DNA of 64,000 nt from Salipiger abyssi (lineage in GTDB: Bacteria > Pseudomonadota > Alphaproteobacteria > Rhodobacterales > Rhodobacteraceae). Of the stretch, positions 1,869-58,793 are shown piece after piece. The notes under the pieces were generated by a model. That model did no database searches and was not told the origin of the DNA. It saw nothing but the letters and a program-made list of their open reading frames with translations. Within the stretch, counting starts at the first letter, position 1. The number at the start of each line of letters is the position of its first letter. Made by a program: the position numbers and the translations under genes. The stretch covers positions 1 to 64,000 of the forward strand of contig NZ_CP015095.1 of assembly GCF_001975705.1 (NCBI RefSeq), read 5' to 3'.

Positions 1869-1884
1869 AGCAAATCATGTGCCA
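1869..1884 (-). promoter_or_regulatory. Sigma-54 (-24/-12) promoter for the ECH-DUF35-SDR operon
   Basis: On the minus strand the sequence reads TGGCACA-TGAT-TTGCT, a full match to the RpoN consensus with the invariant GG and GC ten bases apart. It lies between the end of rpoN and the start of the enoyl-CoA hydratase gene, leaving a leader of about 30 nt. Confidence 0.88.
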
Positions 1885-1902
1885 GCGCGCGCCCGGACGG
1901 GC

Positions 1903-3333
1903 TCAGGCATAGGCCTCTTCCGCCTGTTTCTGCCGGCGGCGTTGAAGCGACGAGGGGATATTCATGATGTCGCGATACTTGGCCACGGTGCGCCGCGCGA
2001 TGTCGATGCCGCCCTTGCGCAGCTCGCTGACGATGGCCTCGTCCGACAGCACGGTCTTGGCGGTCTCGGCATTGACCAGCGCGGCGATCTTGTGGCGCAC
2101 CGTTTCCGACGACAGATCCCCCTCCCCGTCCACCGAGGCGATGGAGTTGGTAAAGAAGAACCGCAGCTCATAGAGACCGCGATCCGTCATCAGGAACTTG
2201 TTGGAGATCGCCCGGCACACGGTCGAGACATGCACACCCACGGTCTCGGCCACATCGCTGAGATTGAGCGGCTTGAGATGCTCGACCCCGTGTTTCAGGA
2301 ACGCCTCCTGCTGGGTGACGATCTCGGTGGCGACATTCAGGATGGTGCGGGCGCGCTGATCGACATTGCGCGCCAGCCAGGTGGCGTTTTTCATGCAGTC
2401 GACGACAAAGCGCTTGTCCTTCGATCCGAGCTTGCCGGCGGTGATCTCGGCGTAATACTGGCGGTTGACCAGCACGCGCGGCAGCAGCGCGGTGTTCAGC
2501 TCGACCTGATACCCGCCATCCTCGGCGGAACGCACGATCACGTCGGGCAGCGCCGGCGGTGTGGGCGTGGTGTCGAACTGCCGGCCCGGGCGCGGATCGA
2601 GATCGCGGATCTCGGCGGCCATCTCGGCAATGTCCTCGAGATCGACACCGCAGAGCTTTGCCAGCTTCCTGAGATCGTATTTCGCCAGCAGCGGCAGGTT
2701 CTCGATCATGCAGGCCATGGCCGGATCGAAGCGGTTCTTCTCGCGCAGCTGGATCTCCAGACATTCGGCGAGGCTGCGCGCGGCGATGCCGGCGGGCTCG
2801 AAGCCCTGCACGCGCTTCAGCACCTGCTCGACCCGCTCCTCGGTGGTGCCGAGGCGGCGGCAAATTGACTTAACATTTTTGCCCAGGTAGCCGCTCTGAT
2901 CCAGCGACTCGATAAGCTCGACGGCGATCATCGCCTCGGCGGGATCGCGGAAGGTCATCGCCGCCTGCCGGTTGAGATGGTCGCGCAGGCTGATCTCGGC
3001 GGCCAGGTAACGCTCGATGCCGTTGTCGTCGCGCTCGCCAAGCGCCGCGCGCGACCCGGTGCCGCCCATCCCCATGCCATCGCCGCCAGAGGCGCCGCGC
3101 TCGGGCGCCGGGGCGCTCGCGGCGGGGGCGTTGAGACTGGTCGAGGGCGCCGCGACATCGGCGTCGCTGCTCTGTCCGACCACTTCCATCAAGGGGTTAC
3201 GCTCTGCCTGGTCCCTCAGGAAGTCGTCAAGCTCGTTGGCGCTGAGCTGGAGAATCCGGATCGACTGGATGACCTGCGAGGTGATCGCGACGGTCTGTTT
3301 GGTAAATACACCAACCTCATGGCGAAGCTGCAT
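1903..3333 (-). CDS. rpoN: RNA polymerase sigma-54 factor RpoN
   Basis: A 476-residue sigma-54. Region I is recognisable at the N-terminus (ITSQVIQSIRILQLSANEL and the NPLME segment), followed by an acidic/Ser-Ala-rich region II (about residues 50-105). The core-binding domain, the HTH (LNLSDVAETVGVHVSTVCRAI-type segment, about 355-385) and the RpoN box ARRTVAKYR (about 450) complete the protein. The ATG follows GGGAGGGAGCC. It is divergent from a sigma-54 activator gene, and the window holds at least eight matching promoters, so this copy may be dedicated to that set. Rhodobacter sphaeroides is known to carry several non-interchangeable RpoN proteins. A host chromosomal rpoN is assumed but cannot be seen here. 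Confidence 0.96.
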   Translation of the reverse strand: MQLRHEVGVFTKQTVAITSQVIQSIRILQLSANELDDFLRDQAERNPLMEVVGQSSDADVAAPSTSLNAPAASAPAPERGASGGDGMGMGGTGSRAALGERDDNGIERYLAAEISLRDHLNRQAAMTFRDPAEAMIAVELIESLDQSGYLGKNVKSICRRLGTTEERVEQVLKRVQGFEPAGIAARSLAECLEIQLREKNRFDPAMACMIENLPLLAKYDLRKLAKLCGVDLEDIAEMAAEIRDLDPRPGRQFDTTPTPPALPDVIVRSAEDGGYQVELNTALLPRVLVNRQYYAEITAGKLGSKDKRFVVDCMKNATWLARNVDQRARTILNVATEIVTQQEAFLKHGVEHLKPLNLSDVAETVGVHVSTVCRAISNKFLMTDRGLYELRFFFTNSIASVDGEGDLSSETVRHKIAALVNAETAKTVLSDEAIVSELRKGGIDIARRTVAKYRDIMNIPSSLQRRRQKQAEEAYA

Positions 3334-3658: not shown

Positions 3659-5317
3659 ATGTCTGAAAAAGATAGGACAATCAGCATTCAGGGTGTCGCC
3701 GTCAACGACAGCGAGGGCGGGCTGCTGTGGAGCTTCGGCATCGCGACCGACCCGCGGATCGAGGAAATGCTCGATGACGAGGAGTGGATTCAGGAGGCGA
3801 TCGCCGCCCGGATGCGGCCGATTCTGCTCACCGATCACAAGCTCATCGCGATCACCTCGGAAATCGCCGGCGGCTATCTGACGGTGCTGTCCGACAGCGC
3901 CAGCGACGTGGTGATGAACTTCATCCTCAACGTGCCCTTCGCCTATGACATCCTCAACCACATCCTGACCGACCCCTATGACGCCATGGCGGTGGTCGAT
4001 GCCAAGGAGAAGGTCGCCTTCATCTCACCGATCCACGAGAAATTCTTTGGCATGCATAACGGCGAGGGCGTCGGCAAGAACGTGCGCGACGTGATCGAGA
4101 ACACCCGCCTGCACAAGGTGGTGCGCACCGGCATCGCCGAGGTCGGCCAGATCCAGCACATGCAGGGCAACGAGCGCGTCGTCTCGCGCCACCCGATCCG
4201 CCGCGACGGCAAGGTCGTGGGCGCCATAGGGCGGGTGATGTTCAAGGGGCCGCAGCAGCTCGAAGCGATGTCCAAGCGCATCCACGATCTGGAATCCGAG
4301 ATTGCCGTCTACAAGAAAGAGACCCGGCAGAAGGTGAAGGGCGAGGAATTCCTCGACATGATCATCGGCCAGAGCCTCGCGATCCAGTCGGTGCGCGAGC
4401 AGATCCGCAAGATCGCGCCGCTGGACATCCCCGTGCTGATCCAGGGCGAAAGCGGCACCGGCAAGGAGCTGGTGGCGCAGGCGCTGCACATGATGAGCGC
4501 GCGGCAGTCGGGCCGGCTGGTCACCATCAACGCCGCCGCCCTGCCCGAGACGCTGGTGGAAAGCGAGCTCTTCGGCTACGAGGCCGGCTCCTTTACCGGC
4601 GCCGACCGCAAGGGCCGCCCGGGCAAGTTCGAACAGGCCGACAAGGGCACGATCTTTCTCGACGAGATCGGCGACATGGCGCTCGACACCCAGTCGAAGC
4701 TGCTGCGCGTGCTTCAGGACCGCATCGTCGAGCGGGTCGGCGGCGACAAGCCCAAACATGTGGATTTCCGCCTGTGCAGCGCCACGAACCGCGATCTGGA
4801 GACCTTTGTGGAGGAAGGCCGCTTCCGGCTCGACCTGTTCTACCGCATCAGCCCGGTGGTGATCGTGCTGCCCGGCCTCGAAGAGCGGCTTGAGGACATT
4901 CCCCTGCTCATCAACCATTTCGCCGCCGATCTCGCCAAGCAGTACAACCGCCCGGTGCCCGAGATCGACCCGGATGTGCATTCCTTCCTGATGGAACAGG
5001 ATTGGCCCGGTAATATCCGCCAGCTCCGCCATGTGATGGAACGCGCTTTTGTGTTCTGCGAAACCGGCCGGATGAGCGTGGCGGACTTCCAGTCGCAACA
5101 GGCGAGCATGAAGCCCGCCAGGAAAGTCGCCAGCGTGACCAGCCCGCAGGCAAAGACTGGCTCGCTCAAGGACAATCTGGAGGAGCTGGAGGCCAAGCTG
5201 ATCAACGACGCGATCATCCGCTTCAAGGGCAACAAGAAGAAGGCCGCCGAGCATCTCGGCGTGTCGCGTTCCTATCTTTACAAGAAGCTGGAGGCCCTGG
5301 GCGGCGATCCGGACTGA
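3659..5317 (+). CDS. Sigma-54-dependent transcriptional activator (PAS-AAA+-Fis)
   Basis: A 552-residue enhancer-binding protein. An N-terminal region of unknown ligand (about 1-95) precedes a PAS-like domain (about 95-210) and a coiled linker (LEAMSKRIHDLESEIAVYKKE). The AAA+ domain has Walker A GESGTGKE (about 262), the sigma-54-contacting loop as GSFTGA (about 310, the common variant of GAFTGA) and Walker B GTIFLDEIGD (about 331). A Fis-type HTH (NKKKAAEHLGVSRSYLYKKLE) ends the protein. There is no receiver domain, so control is probably by a small ligand sensed at the N-terminus or PAS. The start at 3659 is preferred because AAGGA (3641-3645) is too close to the in-frame ATG at 3647; four residues separate them. 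It is divergent from rpoN and directly upstream of a sigma-54-driven TRAP locus, so it probably controls at least that. Confidence 0.94.
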   Translation: MSEKDRTISIQGVAVNDSEGGLLWSFGIATDPRIEEMLDDEEWIQEAIAARMRPILLTDHKLIAITSEIAGGYLTVLSDSASDVVMNFILNVPFAYDILNHILTDPYDAMAVVDAKEKVAFISPIHEKFFGMHNGEGVGKNVRDVIENTRLHKVVRTGIAEVGQIQHMQGNERVVSRHPIRRDGKVVGAIGRVMFKGPQQLEAMSKRIHDLESEIAVYKKETRQKVKGEEFLDMIIGQSLAIQSVREQIRKIAPLDIPVLIQGESGTGKELVAQALHMMSARQSGRLVTINAAALPETLVESELFGYEAGSFTGADRKGRPGKFEQADKGTIFLDEIGDMALDTQSKLLRVLQDRIVERVGGDKPKHVDFRLCSATNRDLETFVEEGRFRLDLFYRISPVVIVLPGLEERLEDIPLLINHFAADLAKQYNRPVPEIDPDVHSFLMEQDWPGNIRQLRHVMERAFVFCETGRMSVADFQSQQASMKPARKVASVTSPQAKTGSLKDNLEELEAKLINDAIIRFKGNKKKAAEHLGVSRSYLYKKLEALGGDPD

Positions 5318-5376: not shown

Positions 5377-5392
5377 TGGCACGCGATTTGCA
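5377..5392 (+). promoter_or_regulatory. Sigma-54 promoter of the first dctP
   Basis: TGGCACG-CGAT-TTGCA matches the RpoN consensus exactly. The dctP start at 5431 is 38 nt after the -12 element. It follows directly after the activator gene, which ends at 5317. Confidence 0.92.
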
Positions 5393-5430: not shown

Positions 5431-6552
5431 ATGCGTTACACGATGTCTGCCACGGCGCTTTGCGCGCTATTGGCCGCCGCGCCGGCGGTCGCCGACACCT
5501 ATCTCGCCGCGACCTGGCTGGGGCTCGGCTCGCCCAATGGCAAGTTCATGCAGGAATATGTCTCGCAGATCGACGAGATTTCCGGCGGTGAGCTGACCTT
5601 TGATCTGCATGCCGGCGGCGCCCTGCTGCCCGCCGATGGCAGCCTGTCCGGGCTCAGCGCCAATGTCGCGCAGTTCGTGCACATCACAGGCGCCTATGTG
5701 CCCTCCGACCTGCCGCTCGACAATGTCATGAGCGATTTCGCCTTCGCCTATGAGGGCTCGCTCACCGCGCTGGCCATCGGCTCGATCGAGACCAAACTGA
5801 CCGATCCGTCGATTCAGGAGGAGTACAAGAGCCACGACGCGGTGTTCGTCTCGACCGGCGCCAACGGCCCCTACAACCTGATCTGCAAGGGCGAGATCCA
5901 CGGGCTCGACGATCTCGACGGCAAAAAGATCCGCGTCACCAGCAGCGCCCATGTCGCTTGGCTGAACGCGGTCGGCGCCACCTCGGTCAGCGTGCCGGGC
6001 TCGGAGATCTATACCGGCCTGCAACGCAACTCCATCGACTGCGCGGTGGGCGATCCGCTGTTCCTCACCGATTACTTCAATCTCGTCGAGGTCGCGGATT
6101 CCGTCACCACCCTGTCGCTCGGCTGGCTCGACACCGGGGGCTATTTCTTCAACCGTGACTTCTGGAACGACATCACCCCCGAGGAGCGCCGGCAGCTTCT
6201 CGACGCGGCGGCGATGACCACGGCGGTCAATATGATCGAATGGGAGGAAAGCCTGGAAGGCGCCTATGCGGCGGCCAACGAACAGGGCGTCGCGGTGATC
6301 GAGCCCGACGAGGATCTTGCCGCGCAGATGGAGGCCTACAAGGCCGAGTATCGCGACGGCTTCGCCGCCTTCGAGATGGACAAACGGAATATCGACGACC
6401 CAAGCGAGCTTGTGGCCCATGCGGACGAGGCGCATGACCGCTGGAACGCGCTCCTGTCGGAAATCGACGCGCGCGATCCCGAGGCGCTCGCCGCCCTGCT
6501 GAAAACCGAGATCTACGACAAGATCGACGTCGAGACTTACGGCATCGACTGA
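5431..6552 (+). CDS. dctP: TRAP transporter solute-binding protein (DctP family), copy 1
   Basis: A 373-residue periplasmic receptor with a Sec signal peptide of about 21 residues (cleavage after AVA, before DTY). The DctP hallmarks are the DLDGKKIRVTSS segment, whose Arg normally ion-pairs with the substrate carboxylate, and GSEIYTGLQRNSIDCAVGD. Its closest relative in the window is the dctP at 18248-19375: both keep ATW near the mature N-terminus, LPADG, GSEIYTG/ASEIYTG, LFLTDYF and a C-terminus ending IDVETYG. The ATG follows GGAGGGAGGATCC. It has its own sigma-54 promoter and is followed by two more dctP genes and a single dctQM pair. The substrate is probably an organic acid of unknown identity. 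Confidence 0.92.
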   Translation: MRYTMSATALCALLAAAPAVADTYLAATWLGLGSPNGKFMQEYVSQIDEISGGELTFDLHAGGALLPADGSLSGLSANVAQFVHITGAYVPSDLPLDNVMSDFAFAYEGSLTALAIGSIETKLTDPSIQEEYKSHDAVFVSTGANGPYNLICKGEIHGLDDLDGKKIRVTSSAHVAWLNAVGATSVSVPGSEIYTGLQRNSIDCAVGDPLFLTDYFNLVEVADSVTTLSLGWLDTGGYFFNRDFWNDITPEERRQLLDAAAMTTAVNMIEWEESLEGAYAAANEQGVAVIEPDEDLAAQMEAYKAEYRDGFAAFEMDKRNIDDPSELVAHADEAHDRWNALLSEIDARDPEALAALLKTEIYDKIDVETYGID

Positions 6553-6558: not shown

Positions 6559-6596
6559 TGCCACGGCTGTCTATTGACGTTACGGCAGCCGTGGCA
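6559..6596 (+). terminator. Hairpin downstream of dctP copy 1, overlapping the next promoter
   Basis: Perfect 11-bp arms TGCCACGGCTG (6559-6569) and CAGCCGTGGCA (6586-6596) with a 16-nt loop, starting 7 nt after the dctP stop. There is no T tract. The right arm contains TGGCA of the following sigma-54 -24 element, so the element may serve as transcript end and/or regulatory site. Confidence 0.6.
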
Positions 6597-6607
6597 CGCC
6601 ATTTGCT
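6592..6607 (+). promoter_or_regulatory. Sigma-54 promoter of the second dctP
   Basis: TGGCACG-CCAT-TTGCT is a full RpoN consensus match. The start codon at 6653 is 45 nt downstream. The -24 half is shared with the right arm of the hairpin at 6559-6596. Confidence 0.92.
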
Positions 6608-6652: not shown

Positions 6653-7678
6653 ATGAAACACATTGTAACGCTCGCAGCCGTGGCCTCGGTCATCGGCGCG
6701 ACGCTTGGCATGCCCGTGCAGGCGCAGGAGACGACCAAACTGAAGGTCGCCTCCTTCCTGCCGGAGTCGCACCATATCGTCGCGCATGGCACGCAGGTCT
6801 GGATGGATGCCGTCACCGACTCGGGCGCGCCGGTGGAGTTCGAATTCTACCCCGCGCAGCAGGCCGGCAAGGCCAACCAGCTGCTCGACCTGATGACCGC
6901 CGGCGCGCTCGACGTGGTCGAGATCGCGCTTGGGTACTATACCGACCGCTTCCCGCTCTTTGGCGTGGTCGAGATGCCGGGCATGTATCAGGATCCCTGC
7001 AACGGCGCGCAGGCGATCCGCAGCCTCGCCTCCGAAGGCGGCGTGATCTATGAGGGCGATATCGCGCCCAAAGGGCTGCACCCGCTGTCCTTTTACGTCT
7101 TCCCCTCCTACGCGACGATCTCGCGCCAGCCGATCCACGGCGCAGAAGATTTCGCCGGTCGCAAGATCCGCACCGCCGGCGGCGCGATGGAGCTGGAAGT
7201 TTCCGAGCTCGGCGGCGTCGCGGTCAAGATGTCCTCGCCCGAGATCATGCAGTCGCTATCGCGCGGCACCATCGACGGCGCCATGCTGACTTATCTCAGC
7301 TCCAAGCAATACGAGCTCTACCGCTCTGCCCAATACGGCACCTCGGGCTACAGTTTCGGCGGCGCCATCGTCATCCTGATGATGACCGACCGGAAATACC
7401 AAACGCTGAGCGACGAGGCCAAGGCCGCGGTCGACGCTGCCGGGGTCGAGGCAGAGCAGGCCTATTGCTCCTATGCCGTCGAGGGCAACGCCGAAGCCAT
7501 GGCCTTCATGAAGGAGCAGGGCGTCGAGATCCACGAGATCACCGAGGCCGAAAAAGCCGAACTCGATACCAAGCTTGCCTCGCTCGCGGACAACTGGGCC
7601 GCGCAGCTCGATCAGATCGGCAAGCCCGGCGCGCAGGCGCTGGCAGAGTTCCGCGCCCTTCTGAAATCAGGCGAATAA
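6653..7678 (+). CDS. dctP: TRAP transporter solute-binding protein (DctP family), copy 2
   Basis: A 341-residue receptor with a signal peptide ending near MPVQAQ (about 23 residues). The ATG at 6653 follows GGAGGAGCAC; an upstream in-frame ATG at 6641 would start inside that ribosome-binding site and is rejected. DctP features are FYPAQQAGKANQLLDLM near residue 65, GRKIRTAGG (binding Arg) and QSLSRGTIDGAML. It resembles copy 3 (FLP-SH/TH opening, FYPA-QAGKA-QLL, a Cys in the middle and another near the C-terminal third) more than copy 1. It has its own sigma-54 promoter and is bounded by hairpins. Ligand specificity probably differs from copies 1 and 3, which share the same membrane subunits. 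Confidence 0.92.
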   Translation: MKHIVTLAAVASVIGATLGMPVQAQETTKLKVASFLPESHHIVAHGTQVWMDAVTDSGAPVEFEFYPAQQAGKANQLLDLMTAGALDVVEIALGYYTDRFPLFGVVEMPGMYQDPCNGAQAIRSLASEGGVIYEGDIAPKGLHPLSFYVFPSYATISRQPIHGAEDFAGRKIRTAGGAMELEVSELGGVAVKMSSPEIMQSLSRGTIDGAMLTYLSSKQYELYRSAQYGTSGYSFGGAIVILMMTDRKYQTLSDEAKAAVDAAGVEAEQAYCSYAVEGNAEAMAFMKEQGVEIHEITEAEKAELDTKLASLADNWAAQLDQIGKPGAQALAEFRALLKSGE

Positions 7679-7742: not shown

Positions 7743-7758
7743 TGGCACATGATTTGCA
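7743..7758 (+). promoter_or_regulatory. Sigma-54 promoter of the third dctP
   Basis: TGGCACA-TGAT-TTGCA matches the RpoN consensus. The dctP start at 7806 is 47 nt downstream. An in-frame start at 7749 would lie inside this promoter and is therefore not used. Confidence 0.9.
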
Positions 7759-7805
7759 GTGCCATGTTTGTGAAGCGACGTTTCACAAAGTTCAGGGAGG
7801 ACGAT

Positions 7806-8837
7806 ATGAAAACCTATCTCAAAGAGGCGCTGGCCGCATTTGCCGCCACGCTGATGATCCCCGCCGCTGCCATGGCGCAGGACAGCATGACGCTCAAGCT
7901 GGGCACATTCCTGCCCTCGACCCATTTCGGCGTCACCCAGGGCACGAATGTGTTCATGGAGGAACTGAGCAAGCTGACCGACGGCAAGGTCGAGGTCGAA
8001 TTCTACCCCGCCGAACAGGCCGGCAAGGCCAAGCAGCTGCTCGAACTGGTGCGCGTCGGCGCCATCGACATCGCCGAGATCGGCACCGGCTACGTGAGCA
8101 GCGACGACATTCCGCTGCTGGGCGTTCTGGAAGTGCCCGGCATCGTGGAAAAGGTCTGCGACGGCACCCATGCCAGCCGCACCGTCGGCGATCCGGGCGG
8201 CGTGGTCTACGAAAACGCCTACAAGCCGCTCGGCATCCGGGTGCTGAGCTATTACGTCTATTCGCCCTACGGCCCCGCGGGCTCGCGCCTGCCGGTGGAA
8301 TCGGTCGAGGCGCTCGAAGGCATGAAGCTGCGCAATGCCGGCGGCCTGATGGAACTGACCGTGGCGGCGCTCGGCGGCGTGCCGATGAAACTGACCTCGC
8401 CGCAGGTTCTGACCGGCCTTCAGCGCGGCACGGTGGATTCCTATCTCGGCGCCTATCTCTCGGTCGAGGCCTATGAATACTATCTCTATGCCAAATACGG
8501 CGCGACCGGCTTCTCGATGGGCACGCCCGGCATCTTCGCCGTGATGTCGGAGTCGAAATACCAGTCGCTGCCCGAAGATGTCCGCAACGCACTGGACGAG
8601 GCCGGCATGATGGCCGAGGAAAACTTCTGCGCCTATTCCGACGCCAACGAGGTCCGCGCCATCGAAGAGCTTCAGTCGGAACACGGCATGGAGATCCACA
8701 CCTGGACCCCGGAACAGGTCGAGCTGCTGCGCGAAAAGACCGCCAGCGTCGCAGAGGAGTGGGTCGCGAGCCTCGAAGCCCGCGGCATTCCCGCCGAACA
8801 GACCCTGGCCGATTTCCAGGCCGCGCTCGGCGACTGA
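7806..8837 (+). CDS. dctP: TRAP transporter solute-binding protein (DctP family), copy 3
   Basis: A 343-residue periplasmic receptor. The signal peptide (MKTYLKEALAAFAATLMIPA...) is cleaved after AMA. The ATG at 7806 follows AGGGAGGACGAT. DctP signatures are EFYPAEQAGKAKQLLELV, GMKLRNAGG (substrate Arg) and TGLQRGTVDSYLG. It is the receptor nearest to dctQM and the most likely basic partner of that pair. Transcription from its own sigma-54 promoter probably runs through the hairpin at 8854-8881 into dctQM, giving more receptor than membrane protein, a usual TRAP arrangement. It is related to copy 2, probably by tandem duplication followed by divergence. Confidence 0.92.
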   Translation: MKTYLKEALAAFAATLMIPAAAMAQDSMTLKLGTFLPSTHFGVTQGTNVFMEELSKLTDGKVEVEFYPAEQAGKAKQLLELVRVGAIDIAEIGTGYVSSDDIPLLGVLEVPGIVEKVCDGTHASRTVGDPGGVVYENAYKPLGIRVLSYYVYSPYGPAGSRLPVESVEALEGMKLRNAGGLMELTVAALGGVPMKLTSPQVLTGLQRGTVDSYLGAYLSVEAYEYYLYAKYGATGFSMGTPGIFAVMSESKYQSLPEDVRNALDEAGMMAEENFCAYSDANEVRAIEELQSEHGMEIHTWTPEQVELLREKTASVAEEWVASLEARGIPAEQTLADFQAALGD

Positions 8838-8853
8838 GCCAGACCGTGACAAA

Positions 8854-8881
8854 GCGCTTTCCGGCCCCGGCCGGGAAGCGC
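8854..8881 (+). terminator. Hairpin between dctP copy 3 and dctQ (probable attenuator/stabiliser)
   Basis: Arms GCGCTT-T-CCGGCC (8854-8866) and GGCCGG-G-AAGCGC (8869-8881) pair over 13 positions with one T-G wobble and a 2-nt loop. No T tract follows. It probably lowers dctQM expression relative to the receptor. Confidence 0.55.
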
Positions 8882-8907
8882 CTCACTCAGACAGGCGGGG
8901 AAAAGCA

Positions 8908-9507
8908 ATGTCAGAAACCGATCATCCTCCCCCGGGCGCCGCACAGCGCGTCTTCCGGGCCCTCGATGCGGCGCTGAATGCCGTGGAAAAACTCATCATG
9001 GCGATTGTCGTCGTCGTGCTCTTTCTCATCATGATCTTTGTCGCCGCCGACGCGCTGCTGCGCTACACGCTGAACAGCCCGCTGATCTTCAGCTACGATC
9101 TGGTCTCGATGTATCTTCTGCCGGTGGCGATGTTGCTGCCCGCGAGTTTCGTGCTGCGGCGCGGCGGGCATATCTCGGTCGATCTCTTCGCGCTGATGAT
9201 GCCCGCGCGGATGCAGCAACTGCTCTTCGGCCTCTCGACGCTGGCCTGCGCGCCCGTCTTCACCATCATGTTCTACCGCATCATGCACAGCTCGCTGGAA
9301 AGCTATGAGCACGGGCTGGTGACCACGGGCATGATCAACTGGCCGATCTGGCTGCATCAGGCGATCTTCAGCGTGACCACCTTTGCCGTGGCGGTGCGGC
9401 TCGTGCATATCGGCATCACCAATCTCTTCGCCTTCGTCACCGGCGCCGACAAGATCGCGATCTCGGTGCTGCCCGACCATTCCGACCCGCTCGAGGAGGC
9501 TGTCTGA
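8908..9507 (+). CDS. dctQ: TRAP transporter small permease DctQ
   Basis: A 199-residue integral membrane protein with four hydrophobic segments (about residues 30-55, 68-92, 105-130 and 150-178). It has DctQ features: the segment after TM1 carries LRYTLNSPLIFSYDL, and RRGGHISVDLFA precedes TM3. It joins with DctM to form the sodium-dependent membrane complex that takes up substrate handed over by the periplasmic receptor. The stop overlaps the dctM start (TGATG), so the two are translationally coupled. It is the only Q subunit for three upstream receptors. Confidence 0.9.
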   Translation: MSETDHPPPGAAQRVFRALDAALNAVEKLIMAIVVVVLFLIMIFVAADALLRYTLNSPLIFSYDLVSMYLLPVAMLLPASFVLRRGGHISVDLFALMMPARMQQLLFGLSTLACAPVFTIMFYRIMHSSLESYEHGLVTTGMINWPIWLHQAIFSVTTFAVAVRLVHIGITNLFAFVTGADKIAISVLPDHSDPLEEAV

Positions 9508-10821: not shown

Positions 10822-10907
10822 CATGGTGAGCTGTGGGTCTTTAGGGTCAGGACCCATTGATTTCCGACTGGCAGCGTGATTCACGGTTCGGAAAACGAGC
10901 GGTGAAC

Positions 10908-11255
10908 ATGTCTGATCTTTTCTGGTTGAGCGACGCGCAGATGGCGCGCCTTGCGCCTTTCTTTCCTAAATCCCACGGCAAGCCTCGCGTAGACGATCGG
11001 CGCGTCCTGAGCGGGATTATCTTCGTCAACCGCAATGGGTTAAGATGGCGTGATGCACCCGCCGCTTATGGCCCGCACAAGACGCTCTACAACCGTTGGA
11101 AGCGGTGGAGCGACAAGGGCGTCTTTGCCCGGATGATGGCGGGTCTGGCTGCCGAACACGGCGAACAGAAGACCGTCATGATCGACGCGACCTATCTCAA
11201 GGCCCACCGAACAGCGACCAGCATGGGCGTGAAAAAGGGGGGCGTGGACGCCTGA
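10908..11255 (+). CDS. IS427-type transposase, N-terminal frame (OrfA)
   Basis: A 115-residue frame starting MSDLFWLSDAQMARLAPFFP, the typical opening of IS5/IS427 transposases. It contains the DUF4096-like N-terminal DNA-binding part and the first catalytic Asp in MIDATYLKAH near residue 90. It ends soon after the run of A and G at 11232-11242, where a -1 shift would join it to OrfB for the full DDE transposase. Confidence 0.88.
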   Translation: MSDLFWLSDAQMARLAPFFPKSHGKPRVDDRRVLSGIIFVNRNGLRWRDAPAAYGPHKTLYNRWKRWSDKGVFARMMAGLAAEHGEQKTVMIDATYLKAHRTATSMGVKKGGVDA

Positions 11256-11665
11256 TTGGTCGGACCAAGGGCGGCATGAACACGAAGTTGCACGCCGTCT
11301 GCGACAGCCAGGGCCGACCGCTCGACCTCTTCGTCACGGCAGGACAAGTCAGCGATTACATCGGTGCCCGCGCTTTGGTGGGCAGTTTGCCAAAGGTGGA
11401 ATGGCTGCTGGGAGACCGCGGCTACGATGCCGACTGGTTCAGAGAAACGTTGAAAGACAAAGGGATACGGGCCTGCATCCCAGGCCGGAAACAGCGGAAG
11501 AAACCGGTGAAGTACGACAAGCGCCGCTACAAACGCCGCAACCGGATTGAGATCATGTTCGGCAGGCTGAAAGACTGGCGACGCGTGGCAACTCGATACG
11601 ACAGATGCCCGAAGGTCTTCCTCTCAGCCATCGCCCTTGCTGCAACCGTCATCTATTGGCTATGA
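11237..11665 (+). CDS. IS427-type transposase, C-terminal frame (OrfB)
   Basis: This is the -1 frame continuing from the slippery run. It reads GRTKGGMNTKLHAV, then the second Asp in LLGDRGYDADWF, then NRIEIMFGRLKDWRRVATRYD with the catalytic Glu. It has no start of its own at the junction and is expected to be made as an OrfAB fusion by programmed frameshifting, as known for this group. The frame is intact, so the element may be active. Confidence 0.86.
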   Translation, partial: GGRGRLIGRTKGGMNTKLHAVCDSQGRPLDLFVTAGQVSDYIGARALVGSLPKVEWLLGDRGYDADWFRETLKDKGIRACIPGRKQRKKPVKYDKRRYKRRNRIEIMFGRLKDWRRVATRYDRCPKVFLSAIALAATVIYWL

Positions 11666-11772
11666 GTCCTGACCCTAGTCAGCACGAAGCGGACCTTTGC
11701 GGACGAAGCCGTCGTTAAACGTCCGGGCATCGTAACTAGACTGTTCGGGTAACAGCTTCATTGGGATGATGA

Positions 11773-13509: not shown

Positions 13510-13588
13510 AAAACGCGGACTCTATGGGGAGCAGGTCATGGGTCACGATGCGGAGGGAGCGAACTCATGACTGAAAGCCGGGATTGAA

Positions 13589-15668: not shown

Positions 15669-15686
15669 TCGGCGTCCTTTCCGGTC

Positions 15687-15917: not shown

Positions 15918-15927
15918 GGGTCTCTCC

Positions 15928-50943: not shown

Positions 50944-53900
50944 TTAACTTTCGGCGTAGGCCGCCGCCTCATAGGCCGAGAGCATGTAGTCGAGCAGGTC
51001 GACCCGAAGCTCGGCCAACTCGATGAATTCCTCCGATCCGTATTCCTGCGCCTTGGCGTAGAAGCTCTCCCACCAAGGGATGAGATCCTTGAGCACGCCG
51101 GGGGTGGCGCGGCTGCCCAGCACCTGGTCGATGGCGGTGCCGATCTCGAGCGGGGTGGGGGAGGGGGTCGGAACGAACCGGTTGACGATGGCCATCAGCC
51201 AGTAATTCGACGGCACGTTCGCGGGCGGCGTGATCGTCGGGCTGGTGGTGTCGTCCCTGACCGGCTGGAACGGCGCGGGAACGCGGCTCACATAGGTGGT
51301 GCGGTATAGGAGCCGCCAGGGCTGCGTCGCATCGCTGAGCGCCTCGCGCATGGCGCTGGCCGCCGCCGTGGTGGCGTTGTTGAGCCAGTTGGGATCGACC
51401 ACCTGGTTCAGCGCGGTGAAGTTCTCCGCCGCCGGCGCCAGCAGGAAGGCCATGTAGCGATAAGCGTCGACCTTGCCGGGCGCGGGCGTCTTTTCGTAGC
51501 CCTTGAAGAGCAATGCGCCGGTCTCGTCCGTCTCCATGATCGGGGCCGAGAGGAACTCGGTCGGCGACACGGTGCAGGCGAGGCTGAAGGCGTTGGACGC
51601 GCTGGCGGATTTGGTCGCGGTCATCGACCAGGTGTTGCCGAGCAGAACGTCGGCTTCGATATAGTAGCCGCCGAAAGGCGTGCCGATATCGGCGGAGGCC
51701 TCGATCCCGCCGGCGACGGTCAGCGAGCTGGCGCCGGTATAGGTCTCGGAATAGCTGTTGGCGACCGACTGCTCTTCCTTGCGCAGCCCGCCGCCGGCGG
51801 ACCAGACGTAATTGTTGCACAGGCTCCGCTGGTTGGTCTGATCGCCGAAATTGAAGGCGGGGTTTTCGCCCAGCTCGTCCTTGACCCGCCCCAGCGAGCC
51901 GATGACGCGGTATTTGTCGGTGCTGAACTGATCGTAATAGGCGGCGAGCTGCTGCTCCTGCTTTTCGATCCGGCGTTTCAGCGCATAGGCTTCGACCGGC
52001 TTGAAATAGCTGCCGCGCTCGGCATTGGCGTTGGGATAATCGGGGTCGTTGACCAGCCCGACCTTGCCGTCGAGCGTGCCGTTCTTGACGTATTTCGGGT
52101 TGATCGGGAAGTCGATGATATTGGTATCGACCGGGATCGTCTCGTTCGGGATGAGCTGATAGCCCACCGGCGTCTGCGTGCCCTTGAGCGCCATCATGTA
52201 GAGATCCGCCGTGGCCGATTTCACGATCGCCGCGCCGAGGTTGTTCTGGATGTAGCGGCGCCCGACCGTGGGGTTGAGGATATTGTCCTCCGGCTCCCAG
52301 GTGCCCGAGGGCGTCAGCGAGGCGGTCAGCGCCTGGGTCTGCGAATGGCTCTGGCTGACGCCGTCGGTATGGCCGATATCGCCGCCGATCTTGAGCTTGG
52401 CGCCGATCTTGAGCTTGTTCTCCAGGGCTTCGGTCTCGGCCTCGGCGCCGACGCCGACCGAGGTGCCGGTCTTGGTGACCTGATAGAGCCCGCCCTTGAT
52501 GTTGAACTCGCCCTTGAAGGTCGAGCCCTGGCTGGCGCTGAAGGACCAGGTCTTGGTCTCGCTTTCGATATAGGCAACGGTGCTGGTGGTGGAGTAGAGC
52601 CGCGCCGGGCCGCCCATGTCGCCGGACCAGTAGGCCAGCGTCTGGTTCTCGCTGGGCAGCGGCGGGCCGCCCTCGATATAGCCGACGATGCTGGGCTTGC
52701 TCTGCACCTGGCCGACAAAGACCGTGTCGAGATCGCCGACCTTGTAGCCGGTCTGAAGCTCGGTATTGCCGACGTCGGTGAAGTAGAAATAGCCCCGCAT
52801 CATCACCGAGTAGACCGCGCCATAGGCGTCTTTCTGGAGGCTGGCGTATTCCACCACCGAGGGCTGCCCGGCGATCTGCGCGCTGTGGTAATCCACCGCG
52901 CCGCCAAGCGCGTTGACCACATATTCCGCCTCGTTCTGGATCGGCGCGGCGCCGGCGGACCAGACCGGCGGCTTGGCCTTGGGCAGCAGGCTGCCGTTAT
53001 TGCCCTTGCCGGTCATGTCGTAGAGCACGCCGCCCGAGCCGGCATCGACCATCCAGTAGGCGTTGAGCCCGTCTTCCTGCCCGCCGAGCGGGGTGTTGTT
53101 GCTCTCGCCGATCTGGGTGCCGGTGAGCCGGATGGAGAACAGGCGGATGTCGTCGAACTGCCCGGTGAAGGGCAGGGTGAGGCTGCCCTCGGCCAGCGCG
53201 CCGCCGATGGTCATCTGGCTGTCGCCATAGCCGCCCAGATCGGTGGCGGTCTTGCGCTGCGGCAGGCTGGCGCCGCCATCGACCCAGATCTCGGCGCTGG
53301 CCACGTCCTGCCAGAGCGTCCAGAGCTGGTTGGAGCTCAGCACCATGTCGTTGTCGCCGACGGCATCCCTGGCGACGGTGCCGCTCTGCTCGTCGAAATC
53401 CCAGCTTGCGGTGAGCCCGTCGCGGCTGGCGGGCAGGGTGTGGAAGGCGTTGACCCGGGCGATCTCGGCGCTGTTGAGCGTCCGGCCCCAGACCCGCACA
53501 TGCGAGATCTTGCCGATGAATTCGAACGTCCGGGCGCCGCCGATGCCGAGATAAAAGGCGCTGTCCTCGTTCGAGATCGAGACCGGCTGGTCGAGATCCT
53601 CGACATTGTTTTCCGCCGCGAGCTGGCCGTCGACATAGATCGACGCCTTGACGAAGTATTTCTGCGCGACGAACTCGTTGCTGCCGCTGTCGTTGGGCAC
53701 CGTGCCGCTGGTGAAGTTCACCGCGACATACGAGGCCTTGCCGGCGGCGATGGCCGTGCTCACGGAGTGGTCGAAATGGGTGGGGGGCAACCGGTAGTCG
53801 CTGCTTTCCTGCGTCAGGTTCACGGTCAGCGAGACCTGCCCCAGCGTGGTCACGGCGAGCGAGTAGCTGCCGGGTTTCTCCAGGATGATCTGCTTGTTGT

Positions 53901-56900
53901 TGACCGTGTCGGGCAAGACCCAGGCTTCGAGCGCGAAGGAGGGGCCGGGGTTGAAGGCGTCGCCATCTGCGACCGTGCCGGAACTGGCGCCGTCGAGCGC
54001 CAGCCCCCAGCCCTGTTTCGAACTGAGCGCCACATGGGTCCAGTCCTTGACGATGCGGTTGGAGACCAGCACGTAATCGTTGCGCCCGGCATAGGGCACG
54101 TCGAAAGCGCCCGCCGCGTCCCAGGCGGGGCTTGCGGGGTTGATGACCTTGGTGTCGTAATCCGGGCCGGAGGCGGCGGCGTTCATGATCTGGGTGCCCG
54201 CGCCTTCGGCGAGATTCCAGCGGATGCCGAGCTGCGGGTCGTTGTCGGGGAAACCGTAGAGCACGCTTTCCCGCACCTCCGTGTCGGAGAGCGCGCGCTG
54301 CCAGAAGGCGACGCCGTTCAGCGTGGCCTGCATGCTGCCGCCGGTGTTCGACCCTACGGTGAGCGCGCCCAGCGGATCGGAAAAGTCGTTCTCGGCCTCG
54401 ACGGTGACCGGCGCGCCGTCGTCGACATAGAGTTTCAGCGACACCTTGCCGGCGCCGATATCGGTCACCGAGAGGGTGATGCAGCTCCATGTCTGCGCGG
54501 GCAGGGTACCGGTGGAGGTGACGGTGGCCGTGCCGCCGCGGAAGCTCAGCTCGGCCTTGCCGATCGGGGTGACCGACAGGGTGAGGAAGGTGGCGCCGCC
54601 GCGCACCGCCGAGACCATGAAGATCTGACCGCTGGCGGTGTCGCTGGACGGTTTGACATAGGTTTGCAGCGTCAGGTCCGGGCCGGTGAAGTTGAACGAG
54701 GCGCCAAGATATGTGTTGTCATCGACGATCAGCCCCGGCCCCTGCTGCGTGCCCATCATGTATTGCACCGGCAGGTCGGGATGGTTCAGCGTGCCGGTCT
54801 CGTTATACGTGAGCAGCCGCGAGGTCTCGCCGCGCGCGGAGGCGTCGGGCTTCAGCCAGCTCTCGACGGTCAGGTCGCTGTCGATGGCCAGTTGCAGCGC
54901 CGGGGGATAGCTCTTGTCGATGTCAAAGCCGACATAGCTGGCGGATCTGGCCTCGTTTTGCAGGCTGAACTGCGGCACGACGCGCATCCAGCCGCCGTTG
55001 ATGCCGGGCATCAGCACCGGGGCCTTGCCATTGGTGTAGCTGGCGGTGTCCGAGAGCCGCCCGAGCCCGCCATTGGTCGGCGGATCGGCGATCACCGCGC
55101 CAAAGAGCCGCGAGCCGGTGACGCTGGTCCTGCCGCTATCGGTGACAAGCTCCGCCTTCTGGAGCACGCGCGCCGGGCTCTTTGCCATCGGAGCGATGGT
55201 CGAAGCATCGTAATGCGGCCCCTGATAGAGCGCGCGCAGCAGCCCGGCATAGGCGAGCGGCGAGGTCTGCGCGGCGGTCGCGTTCAGTACCGAAGCGGTG
55301 AGCCCGTTGGTGAGCGCATAGATCTGCGGGACGATCTCTTCGGTGTACCCCTCCGGATAGCCGTATTCCGTGTCGTCGCCGTTCAGCACGCGGGCGAACC
55401 CTGTCTGGTCGCGCGGTACATCGGGCAGGGCGTAGCCCGCGATCTCGACATCGCAGCGGTCGCTTGCCGGACCGGAACTCACCGTGGCGGAGAAATCCCC
55501 GAGCGCGTCGCGGACAAAGATCACCACATGCGCCATGGCGTCGTCGGAACGGGTGAGCGCCACCGGCAGGCCATAGGCGCGGGTGCCGGGGGTCTCCACC
55601 GTCGCATAATCGTAGCTGTCAGAGCGGCCCGAGAGCACATCGGTCACGCCGCGCGCGGTGGCTGGCATGTCTGGCCAGCGATGGGTGAGCGTGGCGCCAT
55701 CGGTCCATTTCGGCGGGATCGACGAGGTGAAGGCGAGCGTTGCCAGATCGGATGTGCTGCCCTCCTCGACCGCCGCCGAGCCAAGGGTGAGCGCCATGCC
55801 GGGCACCGAGGTGAAGAGGAAATAGCCGTCCTGCGCGCTTGTTGCGGCGAGCACCGAAAGCGTGGTGCCGGTATAGTCGAAGAAGGGCCGCGACTGGTTC
55901 AGCACCGCCTGATCGTCGGGGTTGCCGGCGCCGGCGCCGTTCCAGATCCGCGAGAAGGGCTCGATGGAGCGGGGCAGGCCGGTCCAGATCTCCTCGCCGA
56001 CGCCCTCGGGGCCGGTCACCGTCACGTCGCAGAGCAGCGGTGAGATTGCCGAGGCCGTCACCTCGATGGCGCTGTCGTTCATATAGGTGCCGACGCGATG
56101 GGCGACGAAGTTCACAAAGCCGGTCTGCGAATTGTCGGGCGCGGCAAGCACCGTGGCGGAGACATGGCTCCAGTCCTCGCTGGGAATATTGCGGTAGAGC
56201 GCGACCTTTTCGCGGGTGAGTGCCAGCGGCGCGTCCTCGGACCAGTCGGTCGACCAGTCGGCGTAAAAGGTCGCGCGGGCGGAGCGGGTGGAATATTGCG
56301 ACACCGAGAGTAGGTCGTCCTTGCCGCGGTAATAGAGATGCAGCAGCCCGTCGGAGCCGTCGATCAGGCAGGCGGGATCCTTGGGGGCGATGAAATCGGC
56401 GAGCCCGACATAGTAGCTGAGCCCCGCCGCATCGACATAGAAGGCACCATTGGTGTTGATGCTGACCGGCGCGGTGGAGGGTTCGGGCTTGGGCCCGTAG
56501 ACTGCGGCGGTCAGCCCGTTGGAGATCATGTTGGGGGTGGTCGGCGGGGTGGTGCTGTAATCCACCGCGTTGCTGGGCAGGTCGAGCACATCGGTGCCAC
56601 CCACCGCGATGCGGATGCGATTGAGCGCGCCCTCATAGCCGGCGCTGGCGCCGCCGATGGTGGTGACGGGCGCGCCGGTGGGCTCGGCCTCGGCGGTGCA
56701 GGCGGTCAGCGGCACCGGGTTGTCGTTGACCGTCAGGGTGAAGGGGGTGGCGCCAGCGCCGCCATAGGCCACGGTGATCTCGGACCAGGTCTGCGGAAAC
56801 AGCACCTGATGCAGGCTGCGGCAGCTCACCGCGTTTGTGCCGTCGCCAAAGCCGATCTCGAGCTTGCCGCCATCGACCACTTTCACGTAGGGCGCGGCGG

Positions 56901-58041
56901 TTTTGGGATCGGCCGCCGGATCGCCGCCAAGGATGGTGAGCCCGTCGCTCAGCATGCGGGGCGCGGCCATGAAATGCATCTCGTAGGGGCCGGCGATGGC
57001 CAAGGGGTTGTCGCCCTCGCCCGGCGTCAGATCCAGATAAGAGCCGGTGGTGAAGACCAGATCGAACTCGGCGGGCACGATCGCGTCGGCGAGGATCGCG
57101 CCGTCGAGCTGGGCCATGGTGCCGGCATTGCCGATAGCGCTGTCGATGGTGACGGTCTCGGTCTCGTCGTCGAGGGTCACCGGCAGGGTCAGCATCACCC
57201 GCGAGGCGCGTTTCACCCCGATGCTGGAGCCGTCCGACTGCACCACCTTTTCGTGCTTGACGAAGAGCGCGGCACGGGGCGGCCCGGCGAGGGCGAGCGG
57301 GTCGGCCTCCTTTTCCGGCAGCACCGTGAAGCTGGAATCCGGCGCGATGCCGTAATTCTCGCCGAGCGTCTTGCCGGTGATGTCGAAAAGCCCGTCGCTG
57401 CTGGGCGGGAAATTGAAGAGGTTGATGGTCGTGCCGTCGGGCGCCAGCGTCCAGAACTGCCAGGCCAGGGTTTCCGAGCCGGCGACCGGCAGCAGCGCCA
57501 CGTCGAAATTGCCATCGGCCACCGCATCGACCATGGACAGTTCCAGCGCCGGTTCCAGGAACGGCTTGCCGTCGGCGTCGAGATATTCCTGCGTGTCGGA
57601 TTTATCGAGCGGCACGTCCTGCTTGTGGCTGCGCACAAAGCGCACCTCCCAGGCCGGGTTGAGCGTGTAGCTCACCGTCTTCTGGTTCGAGCCGCTGCCG
57701 GTCTTGAGCAGGCGGAAGCGGTTCACATAGAGTGTGCCGCGCGCCGATTGCTGCACGATGGAGATGTATTTCTGATCGGTCACCACGCGGAAGGGCGCGG
57801 TCGAGGGTTGCATGGTCTCGGCATCGGCCAGCACGGTGATCAGCCCCATGCCCACTTGGCGCACCTGATCGGGGAAGCTCAGTTTGGTGAAGCCGGTCCA
57901 GTCGAGCGCGGCGCTGTCCGGGTCCGTCCCGGGGCCGAGCACGTTGAAGTAGATATCCGGGCTGTCGCTGCCCGCGACCCGGCCAAAGACGACGACGAGG
58001 CCCTGAAAGTTGAGCGAAACGAGTTGGTCGAATTGCAGCAT
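50944..58041 (-). CDS. Giant LamG-like (concanavalin A-like lectin) multidomain protein, 2365 residues
   Basis: The start at 58041 (MLQFDQLVSLNFQG) follows AGGGAGGTCACC. At least three LamG/concanavalin-like beta-sandwich regions are visible: a less clear one at about 350-510 (EMHFMAAPRML to GALNRIRIAVGG), one at about 1055-1280 (DLTVESWLKPD, then ATLNGVAFWQRALSDTEV) and one at about 1370-1640 (SFALEAWVLPD, FIGKISHVRVWGRTLN). The C-terminal third differs. It has Gly/Ser/Thr-rich alternating segments (about 1840-1900 and 2105-2165), a charged coiled stretch (ALKRRIEKQEQQLAAYYDQF, about 2025) and an acidic end. No signal peptide or anchor is seen, so secretion by a leaderless route or a cytoplasmic location is open. 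Function unknown; two small genes and a molybdenum hydroxylase follow. Confidence 0.85.
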   Translation of the reverse strand: MLQFDQLVSLNFQGLVVVFGRVAGSDSPDIYFNVLGPGTDPDSAALDWTGFTKLSFPDQVRQVGMGLITVLADAETMQPSTAPFRVVTDQKYISIVQQSARGTLYVNRFRLLKTGSGSNQKTVSYTLNPAWEVRFVRSHKQDVPLDKSDTQEYLDADGKPFLEPALELSMVDAVADGNFDVALLPVAGSETLAWQFWTLAPDGTTINLFNFPPSSDGLFDITGKTLGENYGIAPDSSFTVLPEKEADPLALAGPPRAALFVKHEKVVQSDGSSIGVKRASRVMLTLPVTLDDETETVTIDSAIGNAGTMAQLDGAILADAIVPAEFDLVFTTGSYLDLTPGEGDNPLAIAGPYEMHFMAAPRMLSDGLTILGGDPAADPKTAAPYVKVVDGGKLEIGFGDGTNAVSCRSLHQVLFPQTWSEITVAYGGAGATPFTLTVNDNPVPLTACTAEAEPTGAPVTTIGGASAGYEGALNRIRIAVGGTDVLDLPSNAVDYSTTPPTTPNMISNGLTAAVYGPKPEPSTAPVSINTNGAFYVDAAGLSYYVGLADFIAPKDPACLIDGSDGLLHLYYRGKDDLLSVSQYSTRSARATFYADWSTDWSEDAPLALTREKVALYRNIPSEDWSHVSATVLAAPDNSQTGFVNFVAHRVGTYMNDSAIEVTASAISPLLCDVTVTGPEGVGEEIWTGLPRSIEPFSRIWNGAGAGNPDDQAVLNQSRPFFDYTGTTLSVLAATSAQDGYFLFTSVPGMALTLGSAAVEEGSTSDLATLAFTSSIPPKWTDGATLTHRWPDMPATARGVTDVLSGRSDSYDYATVETPGTRAYGLPVALTRSDDAMAHVVIFVRDALGDFSATVSSGPASDRCDVEIAGYALPDVPRDQTGFARVLNGDDTEYGYPEGYTEEIVPQIYALTNGLTASVLNATAAQTSPLAYAGLLRALYQGPHYDASTIAPMAKSPARVLQKAELVTDSGRTSVTGSRLFGAVIADPPTNGGLGRLSDTASYTNGKAPVLMPGINGGWMRVVPQFSLQNEARSASYVGFDIDKSYPPALQLAIDSDLTVESWLKPDASARGETSRLLTYNETGTLNHPDLPVQYMMGTQQGPGLIVDDNTYLGASFNFTGPDLTLQTYVKPSSDTASGQIFMVSAVRGGATFLTLSVTPIGKAELSFRGGTATVTSTGTLPAQTWSCITLSVTDIGAGKVSLKLYVDDGAPVTVEAENDFSDPLGALTVGSNTGGSMQATLNGVAFWQRALSDTEVRESVLYGFPDNDPQLGIRWNLAEGAGTQIMNAAASGPDYDTKVINPASPAWDAAGAFDVPYAGRNDYVLVSNRIVKDWTHVALSSKQGWGLALDGASSGTVADGDAFNPGPSFALEAWVLPDTVNNKQIILEKPGSYSLAVTTLGQVSLTVNLTQESSDYRLPPTHFDHSVSTAIAAGKASYVAVNFTSGTVPNDSGSNEFVAQKYFVKASIYVDGQLAAENNVEDLDQPVSISNEDSAFYLGIGGARTFEFIGKISHVRVWGRTLNSAEIARVNAFHTLPASRDGLTASWDFDEQSGTVARDAVGDNDMVLSSNQLWTLWQDVASAEIWVDGGASLPQRKTATDLGGYGDSQMTIGGALAEGSLTLPFTGQFDDIRLFSIRLTGTQIGESNNTPLGGQEDGLNAYWMVDAGSGGVLYDMTGKGNNGSLLPKAKPPVWSAGAAPIQNEAEYVVNALGGAVDYHSAQIAGQPSVVEYASLQKDAYGAVYSVMMRGYFYFTDVGNTELQTGYKVGDLDTVFVGQVQSKPSIVGYIEGGPPLPSENQTLAYWSGDMGGPARLYSTTSTVAYIESETKTWSFSASQGSTFKGEFNIKGGLYQVTKTGTSVGVGAEAETEALENKLKIGAKLKIGGDIGHTDGVSQSHSQTQALTASLTPSGTWEPEDNILNPTVGRRYIQNNLGAAIVKSATADLYMMALKGTQTPVGYQLIPNETIPVDTNIIDFPINPKYVKNGTLDGKVGLVNDPDYPNANAERGSYFKPVEAYALKRRIEKQEQQLAAYYDQFSTDKYRVIGSLGRVKDELGENPAFNFGDQTNQRSLCNNYVWSAGGGLRKEEQSVANSYSETYTGASSLTVAGGIEASADIGTPFGGYYIEADVLLGNTWSMTATKSASASNAFSLACTVSPTEFLSAPIMETDETGALLFKGYEKTPAPGKVDAYRYMAFLLAPAAENFTALNQVVDPNWLNNATTAAASAMREALSDATQPWRLLYRTTYVSRVPAPFQPVRDDTTSPTITPPANVPSNYWLMAIVNRFVPTPSPTPLEIGTAIDQVLGSRATPGVLKDLIPWWESFYAKAQEYGSEEFIELAELRVDLLDYMLSAYEAAAYAES

Positions 58042-58777
58042 GGTGACCTCCCTGGGGCGACTGCATTTTTTGATTTGATGCAATCTTGGGTAGATCCGTT
58101 TTTTCGCTCAACGGCAGAGATGCGCCGAGTGTCGGCGGTTTGACACATGCGAATTCCATGGCGCCACGGCGGGGCGGCCCGCGATGTGCGGGCGGCTGCG
58201 CTGATAGATCATGGTTTCGGGTGCCGTGGGGTCATCTTGCGGGCCGGGGCGGCCTGCGCGCGGGACGGCGGATGGAAATCGCGGCAAGTGTCGCAAAGGC
58301 GACAGCCGCGCCCCGGAGATCGACGAAAGGGGGCAGAATCGGTCAGATATGCACCTTTGAAATAAGACCTTAACATGCAGATATTGCTGTATAAAGGCGA
58401 AAATATGGCGGCTGATCCGCGGCCGGTCGGCGACGATGCGGGCGTATGGGTCGTGATTGGAAAATCCCGGTGCGCTTCGCTGCGCCGGATACGGTGTTGC
58501 GGGCGCGGAAGGATGCAGGCGCGGGGATCGGTCGGCGCGCGGAGACTGAGCGGTGTCGCGTGCCTGTTGGGCAAGTGCGACCGCGCCGCGGCCCGGTGAG
58601 GTGCCGCCAGATCGAATGCCGCCTCTCCGGGGGTGGGTGTTTCTCAAAATGCAACTTTAAGATGAATTTTGCGCTGATGCTGCGCAGGTGGCAGCCCCCG
58701 CGCGTGCACCGGGGCTTTGACGGCATATGGGCGCTGAAAAATATGTAAAATATTTTAGCTCTACATGTCCTTACATT
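58042..58777. other. Long non-coding region between the giant gene and TRAP locus 3
   Basis: No convincing gene in about 735 nt. The last 140 nt before the sigma-54 promoter are clearly AT-rich for this replicon and include the inverted pair AAAATAT/ATATTTT near 58739-58756. It should hold the promoter of the giant gene (leftward) and activator or bending-protein sites for the sigma-54 promoter (rightward), but no precise site can be named. Confidence 0.5.
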
Positions 58778-58793
58778 TGGCACGGCGATTGCA
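58778..58793 (+). promoter_or_regulatory. Sigma-54 promoter of TRAP locus 3
   Basis: TGGCACG-GCGA-TTGCA is a full RpoN consensus match. It lies about 128 nt before the dctP start at 58921, behind an AT-rich upstream region. Confidence 0.91.

Follow-up and report, generated by a model that had tools for sequence, protein, structure and literature searches.

The stretch analyzed here, referred to as the window, comprises bases 1–64,000 of contig C7 (NZ_CP015095.1; 134,425 bp) of the Salipiger abyssi genome, which amounts to 5,259,072 bp in nine contigs, the largest being C5 (4,246,390 bp). It contains an rpoN gene for sigma-54 (1903–3333, minus strand; 476 aa), a divergent gene for a sigma-54 activator (3659–5317, plus strand; 552 aa) and a series of −24/−12 promoter elements. 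An earlier reading of the letters (the sequence-only reading) had placed an RpoN and a PAS-AAA+-Fis activator at these positions, and the domains of both were recognized. The RpoN carries the AID, CBD and DBD domains over cut-off (PF00309, PF04963 and PF04552) and the RpoN box ARRTVAKYR. The activator is composed of an N-terminal domain, a PAS domain, the sigma-54 AAA+ domain (PF00158) with the Walker A motif GESGTGK and a GAFTGA-type loop (GSFTGA), and a Fis helix-turn-helix; the Fis domain (PF02954) was over cut-off, and PAS was below it (E 5e-4, 20.5 bits vs a cut-off of 22.6). The structure prediction (mean pLDDT 69.8), combined with a fold search, confirmed the AAA+ part and gave no named match for the N-terminal domain. 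No receiver domain was found in the activator, so control by a ligand appears likelier than control by phosphorylation. This protein is the only sigma-54 activator match on C7 and is 99% identical to one encoded in S. abyssi SY10-16.

Eight main −24/−12 elements were located in the window, with the first base of each lying 54–143 nt upstream of the start codon of the first gene. The spacing of 38–137 nt proposed earlier agrees with this if counted from the element end, and all of the site coordinates proposed with it hold. For comparison, two replicons were used, namely pP73A of Celeribacter indicus (155,183 bp, RepABC) and C14 of C. litoreus (255,306 bp, 136,000 read), and C7 genes were paired with orthologues at a cut-off of at least 60% identity. 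Five elements match TGGCACN5TTGCW exactly. The element at 1869–1884 on the minus strand (TGGCACATGATTTGCT) precedes the operon 1–1828 (minus strand), which encodes a MenB/BadI-like enoyl-CoA hydratase (1022–1828), a Zn-ribbon OB-fold protein (624–1016) and a short-chain dehydrogenase/reductase (SDR) cut by the window edge; the orthologue sites are pP73A 100367 (minus) and C14 62110 (plus). On the plus strand, the elements at 5377–5392 (TGGCACGCGATTTGCA) and 6592–6607 (TGGCACGCCATTTGCT) each precede a solo dctP gene (5431–6552 and 6653–7678), the element at 7743–7758 (TGGCACATGATTTGCA) precedes dctPQM (7806–10790; orthologue site pP73A 17145, minus), and that at 58778–58793 (TGGCACGGCGATTGCA) precedes dctP, dctQ, dctM and genes for an aldehyde dehydrogenase (ALDH) and a dehydrogenase (orthologue sites pP73A 94335, minus, and C14 74046, plus).

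The other three main elements lie on the minus strand. With one mismatch, the element at 32747–32762 (TGGCACGGGCTTTGCG) precedes an operon of SDR and sugar-type ATP-binding cassette (ABC) transporter genes (24932–32629), the promoter of which has a site at C14 44721 (plus) and none found in pP73A. Two mismatches each were counted in the element at 21367–21382 (TGGCATAGCTTTTGCG), upstream of dctQ-dctM-dctP-ALDH and the following genes (∼14664–21244), and in that at 24893–24908 (TGGCATGTATTTTGCG), upstream of genes for a zinc alcohol dehydrogenase, an ALDH and a CMD protein. The 15-mer of the former is identical in S. abyssi SY10-16 (C15:58640); the orthologues of the genes behind the latter, in pP73A as in C14, had no site found upstream. 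A weaker element on the plus strand (37007–37022; TGGTATGACATTTGCG) lies 152 nt upstream of NMT1-type ABC transporter genes (37159–39881). Comparison of the element alone gave a strict site (defined below) one base different in SY10-16 (C15:42989), and in pP73A a site at 56350 (minus) precedes the gene of a 42%-identical binding protein.

The distribution of the sites was analyzed with the strict pattern TGGCAYN4WTTGC. Of 23 strict sites in the genome, 18 are on C7 (eight of them in the window), four on C5 and one on C2; C7 represents 2.6% of the genome, and the binomial probability of such a distribution is 6e-25. Per Mb, C7 thus holds ∼134 strict sites and the remainder of the genome ∼1. Equal promoter density across the genome, which the sequence-only reading had named as evidence against itself, was therefore not observed. 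Similarly, nine of ten genome matches to TGGCACN5TTGCW are on C7. When C7 was simulated in 150 order-3 Markov runs, a mean of 0.24 strict sites and a maximum of 2 were obtained. None of the 18 strict sites on C7 overlaps a called gene, with 16% of C7 lying outside called genes, and all five strict sites off C7 are inside long coding-like open frames, a repeated stretch accounting for two. At two mismatches, no excess was seen in the window (27 matches vs 28.0 expected from shuffles), and the two weakest window sites are therefore not credible from sequence alone.

When candidate sites were ranked by a matrix-like score that required GG and GC, 28 on C7 reached at least 7.2, of which 22 stand 18–330 bp upstream of a called gene. 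One of the six others (79290) precedes an open frame missed by the gene caller, at a position corresponding to the CoxG gene of pP73A; the remaining five are probably due to chance. Sites extend beyond the window up to 126.4 kb, and include five divergent pairs (70016−/70066+, 79236−/79290+, 82445−/82469+, 88021−/88107+ and 126321−/126361+). The earlier observation of scattered sites is confirmed, and the predicted regulon is better described as one replicon-wide regulon larger than the window. Across 199 genomes of the family, the strict pattern occurred 0–46 times per genome, and the maximum was in a genome (G125) without detected RpoN. As the reversed-pattern control underestimates the background in other genomes (46 vs 4 in G125, and 39 vs 1 in G017, also without detected RpoN), raw counts were abandoned as evidence and placement was used instead. 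A congener without detected RpoN (G097) has six strict sites in its 4.7 Mb, a rate similar to that outside C7. The raw count means little; the distinctive feature is the placement of the sites on C7.

The placement is conserved. Much of the C7 cargo is also present on pP73A and C14, in a different order. In 63 gene pairs between C7 and pP73A, a site was found in both members for 14, in C7 only for 2, in pP73A only for 3 and in neither for 44 (Fisher 1.9e-9); in 53 pairs between C7 and C14, the corresponding numbers were 14, 2, 0 and 37 (Fisher 5.0e-11). Agreement within the 14 matched trios is 0.96 at the ten core positions, a value owed in part to the choice of sites by consensus, and it falls to 0.43–0.49 in the spacer and 0.28–0.33 in the ungapped flanks, which argues that the sites were not retained merely through the overall likeness of the regions. 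Strict sites number 18 in pP73A (0 in the reversed control), and 14 of the 19 in C. litoreus are on the contig with the module (the rpoN-activator pair). In S. abyssi SY10-16, 14 of 22 share a contig with the pair; C11 and C22 hold another five, the 15-mer of each matching a C7 site exactly, and three are elsewhere. A strict site also precedes rpoN in pP73A, suggesting autoregulation there; upstream of rpoN on C7 and on C14, none was found. The regulon is large in the replicons of S. abyssi, C. indicus and C. litoreus, and smaller in the other carriers inspected.

These data bear on the possibility that the sites are an artefact of base composition or of coding sequence. The 46 matches in a genome without detected RpoN and the lack of a window excess at two mismatches speak for such an artefact; it is already contradicted by the restriction to C7, the intergenic position, the conservation despite diverged flanks and the simulated mean of 0.24, and we regard it as extremely improbable. 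As a separate observation, a six-gene block is present twice in pP73A (68854–75424 and 103306–109876; L123–L126) with identical protein accessions, a recent duplication of an acyl-CoA operon, and the second copy lies behind a CoA-transferase gene that has its own sigma-54 site.

The genes behind the sites fall into transport and oxidation. For transport, the regulon includes the two solo dctP genes and dctPQM beside the activator, two more tripartite ATP-independent periplasmic (TRAP) systems, a further dctP, the sugar-type ABC operon and the NMT1-type ABC system. The enzymes comprise alcohol and aldehyde dehydrogenases, an AMP-ligase, a CoA-transferase, acyl-CoA dehydrogenases, enoyl-CoA hydratases, a thiolase, MaoC, electron-transfer flavoprotein and molybdenum hydroxylase subunits. 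This content matches the uptake-and-oxidation regulon suggested beforehand, and it reads as a putative programme by which cyclic organic acids or alcohols would be taken up and oxidized in a CoA-dependent manner. Degradation of polycyclic aromatic hydrocarbons was considered as a role of the cargo and set aside; no link to the C7 genes was found in the part of the source covered (PMC11705938).

The arrangement of rpoN and the activator was compared across relatives. The two genes are divergent in 12 fetched loci (L043, L044, L046–L050, L052–L054, L056 and L060), and likewise in pP73A; in 8 of the 12 (L043, L044, L047–L050, L052 and L053) a strict site closely follows rpoN. Both genes are interrupted in L060, and six loci (L051, L055, L057–L059 and L061) contain the activator without rpoN in the fetched stretch. 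In Mangrovicoccus ximenensis (L045), the rpoN beside the activator is unlike RpoN beyond ∼60 residues; that genome has five divergent site pairs elsewhere and four Sigma54_DBD matches, one of them partial. RpoN was detected over cut-off in 64 of the 199 sampled family genomes and was not in 135. In 5 of the 16 genomes reached through the loci, the RpoN of the module is the only one (interrupted in one of the five). C. litoreus has a single RpoN, located in the module, and 11 Sigma54_activat matches, 10 of which were read as loci; when open frames longer than 200 aa were searched, the GAFTGA-type loop was present only in the activator of the module. The dedication of the pair to the regulon, as proposed by the sequence-only reading, is well supported by the conserved divergent pair, the conserved promoters and C. 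litoreus with its sole RpoN and sole detected GAFTGA-type activator. The single RpoN of C. litoreus also indirectly favours the idea that the RpoN of the element would be the one required, a host copy being dispensable.

Several observations weigh against such a dedicated pair. The S. abyssi chromosome encodes a second RpoN (C5:2702239–2703309; 418 aa), which is short, diverged and 32% identical to that of C7, and the same loop search over 13 loci of this genome found, besides the C7 activator, one chromosomal GAFTGA protein (C5:2230345). Recognition of −24/−12 elements is generally conserved, and the C7 sites could be real sigma-54 promoters that the chromosomal RpoN and activator also use, or for the most part drive, the plasmid rpoN being redundant. 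We consider this improbable, given that C. litoreus has many of the same promoters, yet only the module RpoN and one detected GAFTGA activator, and that no strict site was found outside coding-like frames on the S. abyssi chromosome.

Further contrary points concern the partnership itself. The distances of RpoN and of the activator correlate only moderately (Mantel r 0.42, 33 of 5000 permutations; 12 pairs, one interrupted). In pP73A, the activator nearest to that of C7 (84%) adjoins a hydratase gene and is separated from rpoN, and the rpoN (52%) adjoins a second activator (63–64%); the partners were therefore not strictly co-inherited, and parts were exchanged. Two of the 16 C7 promoters are without a partner in each of the comparisons with pP73A and C14, and of the 13 strict sites each in Roseovarius gahaiensis and Tropicibacter naphthalenivorans, only two and five, respectively, are on the module contig (in R. 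pacificus, 5 of 14). Lastly, as no activator motif common to the three replicons was found in the searches described below, the activator is matched to the promoters by exclusion only. The C7 RpoN might serve several activators, with the adjacent one running a few neighbouring operons and other regulators the rest; the missing shared enhancer motif, the two paralogous activators on pP73A and the few sites near the pair in several carriers favour this view. It is nonetheless unlikely in our estimation, since C7 has one sigma-54 activator match and C. litoreus has one detected GAFTGA activator for the 14 strict sites on its contig.

The binding site of the activator was sought by exact inverted repeats, by dyads and k-mers across the three replicons (61 promoter regions), by TGTGA/TCACA pairs, by a palindrome scan and, for 17 regions of C7, by a small expectation-maximisation search. 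Enriched words were TGTGAA (16 of 61 regions vs 53 of 900 random ones) and CTGTGAA (9 vs 6). In the expectation-maximisation search, the best models of all eight settings beat three block-shuffled controls each. The cleanest model, AATGT-N4-ACATT, had 10 matches on C7 within 250 bp of a promoter vs 1.4 expected, but was derived from those regions; elsewhere it did not clearly repeat (2 vs 0.4 in pP73A, 1 vs 0.6 in C14), and as an activator site it is an unproven lead. Near-matches ∼60 bp or closer to C7 promoters are at 5396, 58764, 69982, 70030, 79267, 79300, 84360, 87985 and 121032. Since the divergent promoters of C7 are just 24–86 bp apart, enhancers may be situated at very short distances or within transcribed DNA.

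A different palindrome, TTGTGAA-N7-TTCACAA, covers the start region of the SDR/ABC promoter on C7 (32731–32751, overlapping the −24/−12 element) and on C14 (44732). It is also found at 7768–7788 (TTGTGAAGCGACGTTTCACAA), beside the 7743 promoter, and at pP73A 22853, upstream of the SDR/ABC operon where no sigma-54 site was found. This palindrome was set aside as an enhancer of the activator and is read as an operator of an IclR-type regulator; the IclR-type gene divergent from the SDR/ABC operon (32974–33729, plus strand) encodes a candidate binder. Local repression by the adjacent IclR protein, on top of sigma-54 control of the SDR/ABC promoter, is suggested.

A RepA/ParA-like partition ATPase gene with a weak RepB-like neighbour is located at 40538–42927 (minus strand), both products being below the curated NCBIfam cut-offs; a ParA 86% identical to that of C7 is encoded on C14 of C. 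litoreus. No tRNA genes were found on C7. The partition-like genes, the lack of tRNA genes, the size and the relatives point to a plasmid, that is, an extrachromosomal replicon. The sequence-only reading had called the module mobile. Such mobility is supported only indirectly, by the same cargo on differing partition backbones (C7 and C14 vs the RepABC replicon pP73A), whereas MOB-suite types pP73A as non-mobilizable. Elsewhere on the replicon, IS5- and IS3-type elements lie beside the dctPQM operon (10842–13540), with close relatives on many Rhodobacterales plasmids. A 2,365-residue protein (50944–58041), in which Pfam recognizes LamG-like domains only, is encoded near a molybdenum hydroxylase-like gene pair. 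A winged-helix protein (L040:17119–17784; C7 ∼101.1–101.8 kb) has a Replication-relaxation match (PF13814) over cut-off and is possibly only a PadR/MarR-like regulator.

Taken together, the data make it quite probable that C7 is a catabolic plasmid equipped with a sigma-54 circuit of its own, comprising an RpoN, a matching activator and ∼20 promoters. In the proposed mechanism, the activator would be a one-component PAS-AAA+-Fis protein, most likely sensing a small molecule from the degraded substrate; it would bind near the promoters, hydrolyse ATP and open the complexes of RNA polymerase with the plasmid RpoN. The ∼20 near-consensus promoters, of which ten form five closely spaced divergent pairs, would then jointly switch on TRAP and ABC uptake and the enzymes of CoA-dependent oxidation. 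As about two-thirds of the sampled family genomes are without detected RpoN, the plasmid would need to bring both the sigma factor and the activator for a typical new host, and the replicon seems to bring sigma-54 control along with its cargo. The stronger proposal, that this is a self-sufficient orthogonal sigma-54 system in which one sigma factor, one activator and replicon-confined promoters unread by the host machinery would allow a large catabolic programme to enter sigma-54-less hosts while retaining its own switch, is tentative, and we place it slightly below an even chance.

The usual view of sigma-54 is that of a core factor serving many activators. On C7, it would instead be cargo: most sampled family members have no detectable RpoN, and the plasmid packages a sigma factor, an activator and ∼20 promoters. 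Having a single RpoN and, apparently, a single competent activator, C. litoreus would offer a natural sigma-54 system of minimal size for directly testing the regulon, its specificity and plasmid spread. The promoter list also gathers unassigned transport and oxidation genes into one predicted inducible programme.

Known systems were compared using the parts of the sources covered. Element-borne rpoN and activator genes are represented by RpoN2-NifA2 of Mesorhizobium loti ICEMlSymR7A and by rpoN2 of Rhizobium etli (PMC3538637), in which, as on C7, one accessory element carries rpoN, the activator and many target genes. Unlike C7 with its catabolic genes, the M. loti element serves nitrogen fixation, and the C7 activator differs in being PAS-type and encoded divergently beside rpoN; moreover, a chromosomal RpoN1 is present in the M. 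loti host and may set the circuit in motion (PMC3538637), whereas C. litoreus has no other detected RpoN. Cereibacter sphaeroides, also of the Rhodobacterales, has the cognate pairs RpoN1-NifA, RpoN2-FleQ and RpoN3-AprX, so that each studied RpoN copy has one cognate activator and its own genes; these copies serve nif, flagellar and xrpA genes, and AprX has a receiver domain, in contrast to the PAS one-component activator and the plasmid-wide catabolic regulon of C7 (PMC11999139). On pAMI4 of Paracoccus aminophilus, as for the module in C. litoreus, the only rpoN of the cell is extrachromosomal, and unlike for C7, the text covered describes no regulon or partner activator (PMC3925955). The RpoNp of Bradyrhizobium sp. 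DOA9 is, like the C7 RpoN, a second, megaplasmid-borne copy with a restricted predicted regulon; unlike on C7, its 22 putative sites are genome-wide, possibly read by either RpoN, and concern mainly stress adaptation, and the promoters tested were bound by both RpoNs (PMC13207237). A search of the open-licence PMC literature found no description of a catabolic sigma-54 regulon that spans a plasmid and includes its own rpoN. Element-borne rpoN-activator pairs are thus already known, and what is new here, well supported as a prediction, is an RpoN-activator regulon that is both catabolic and replicon-wide.

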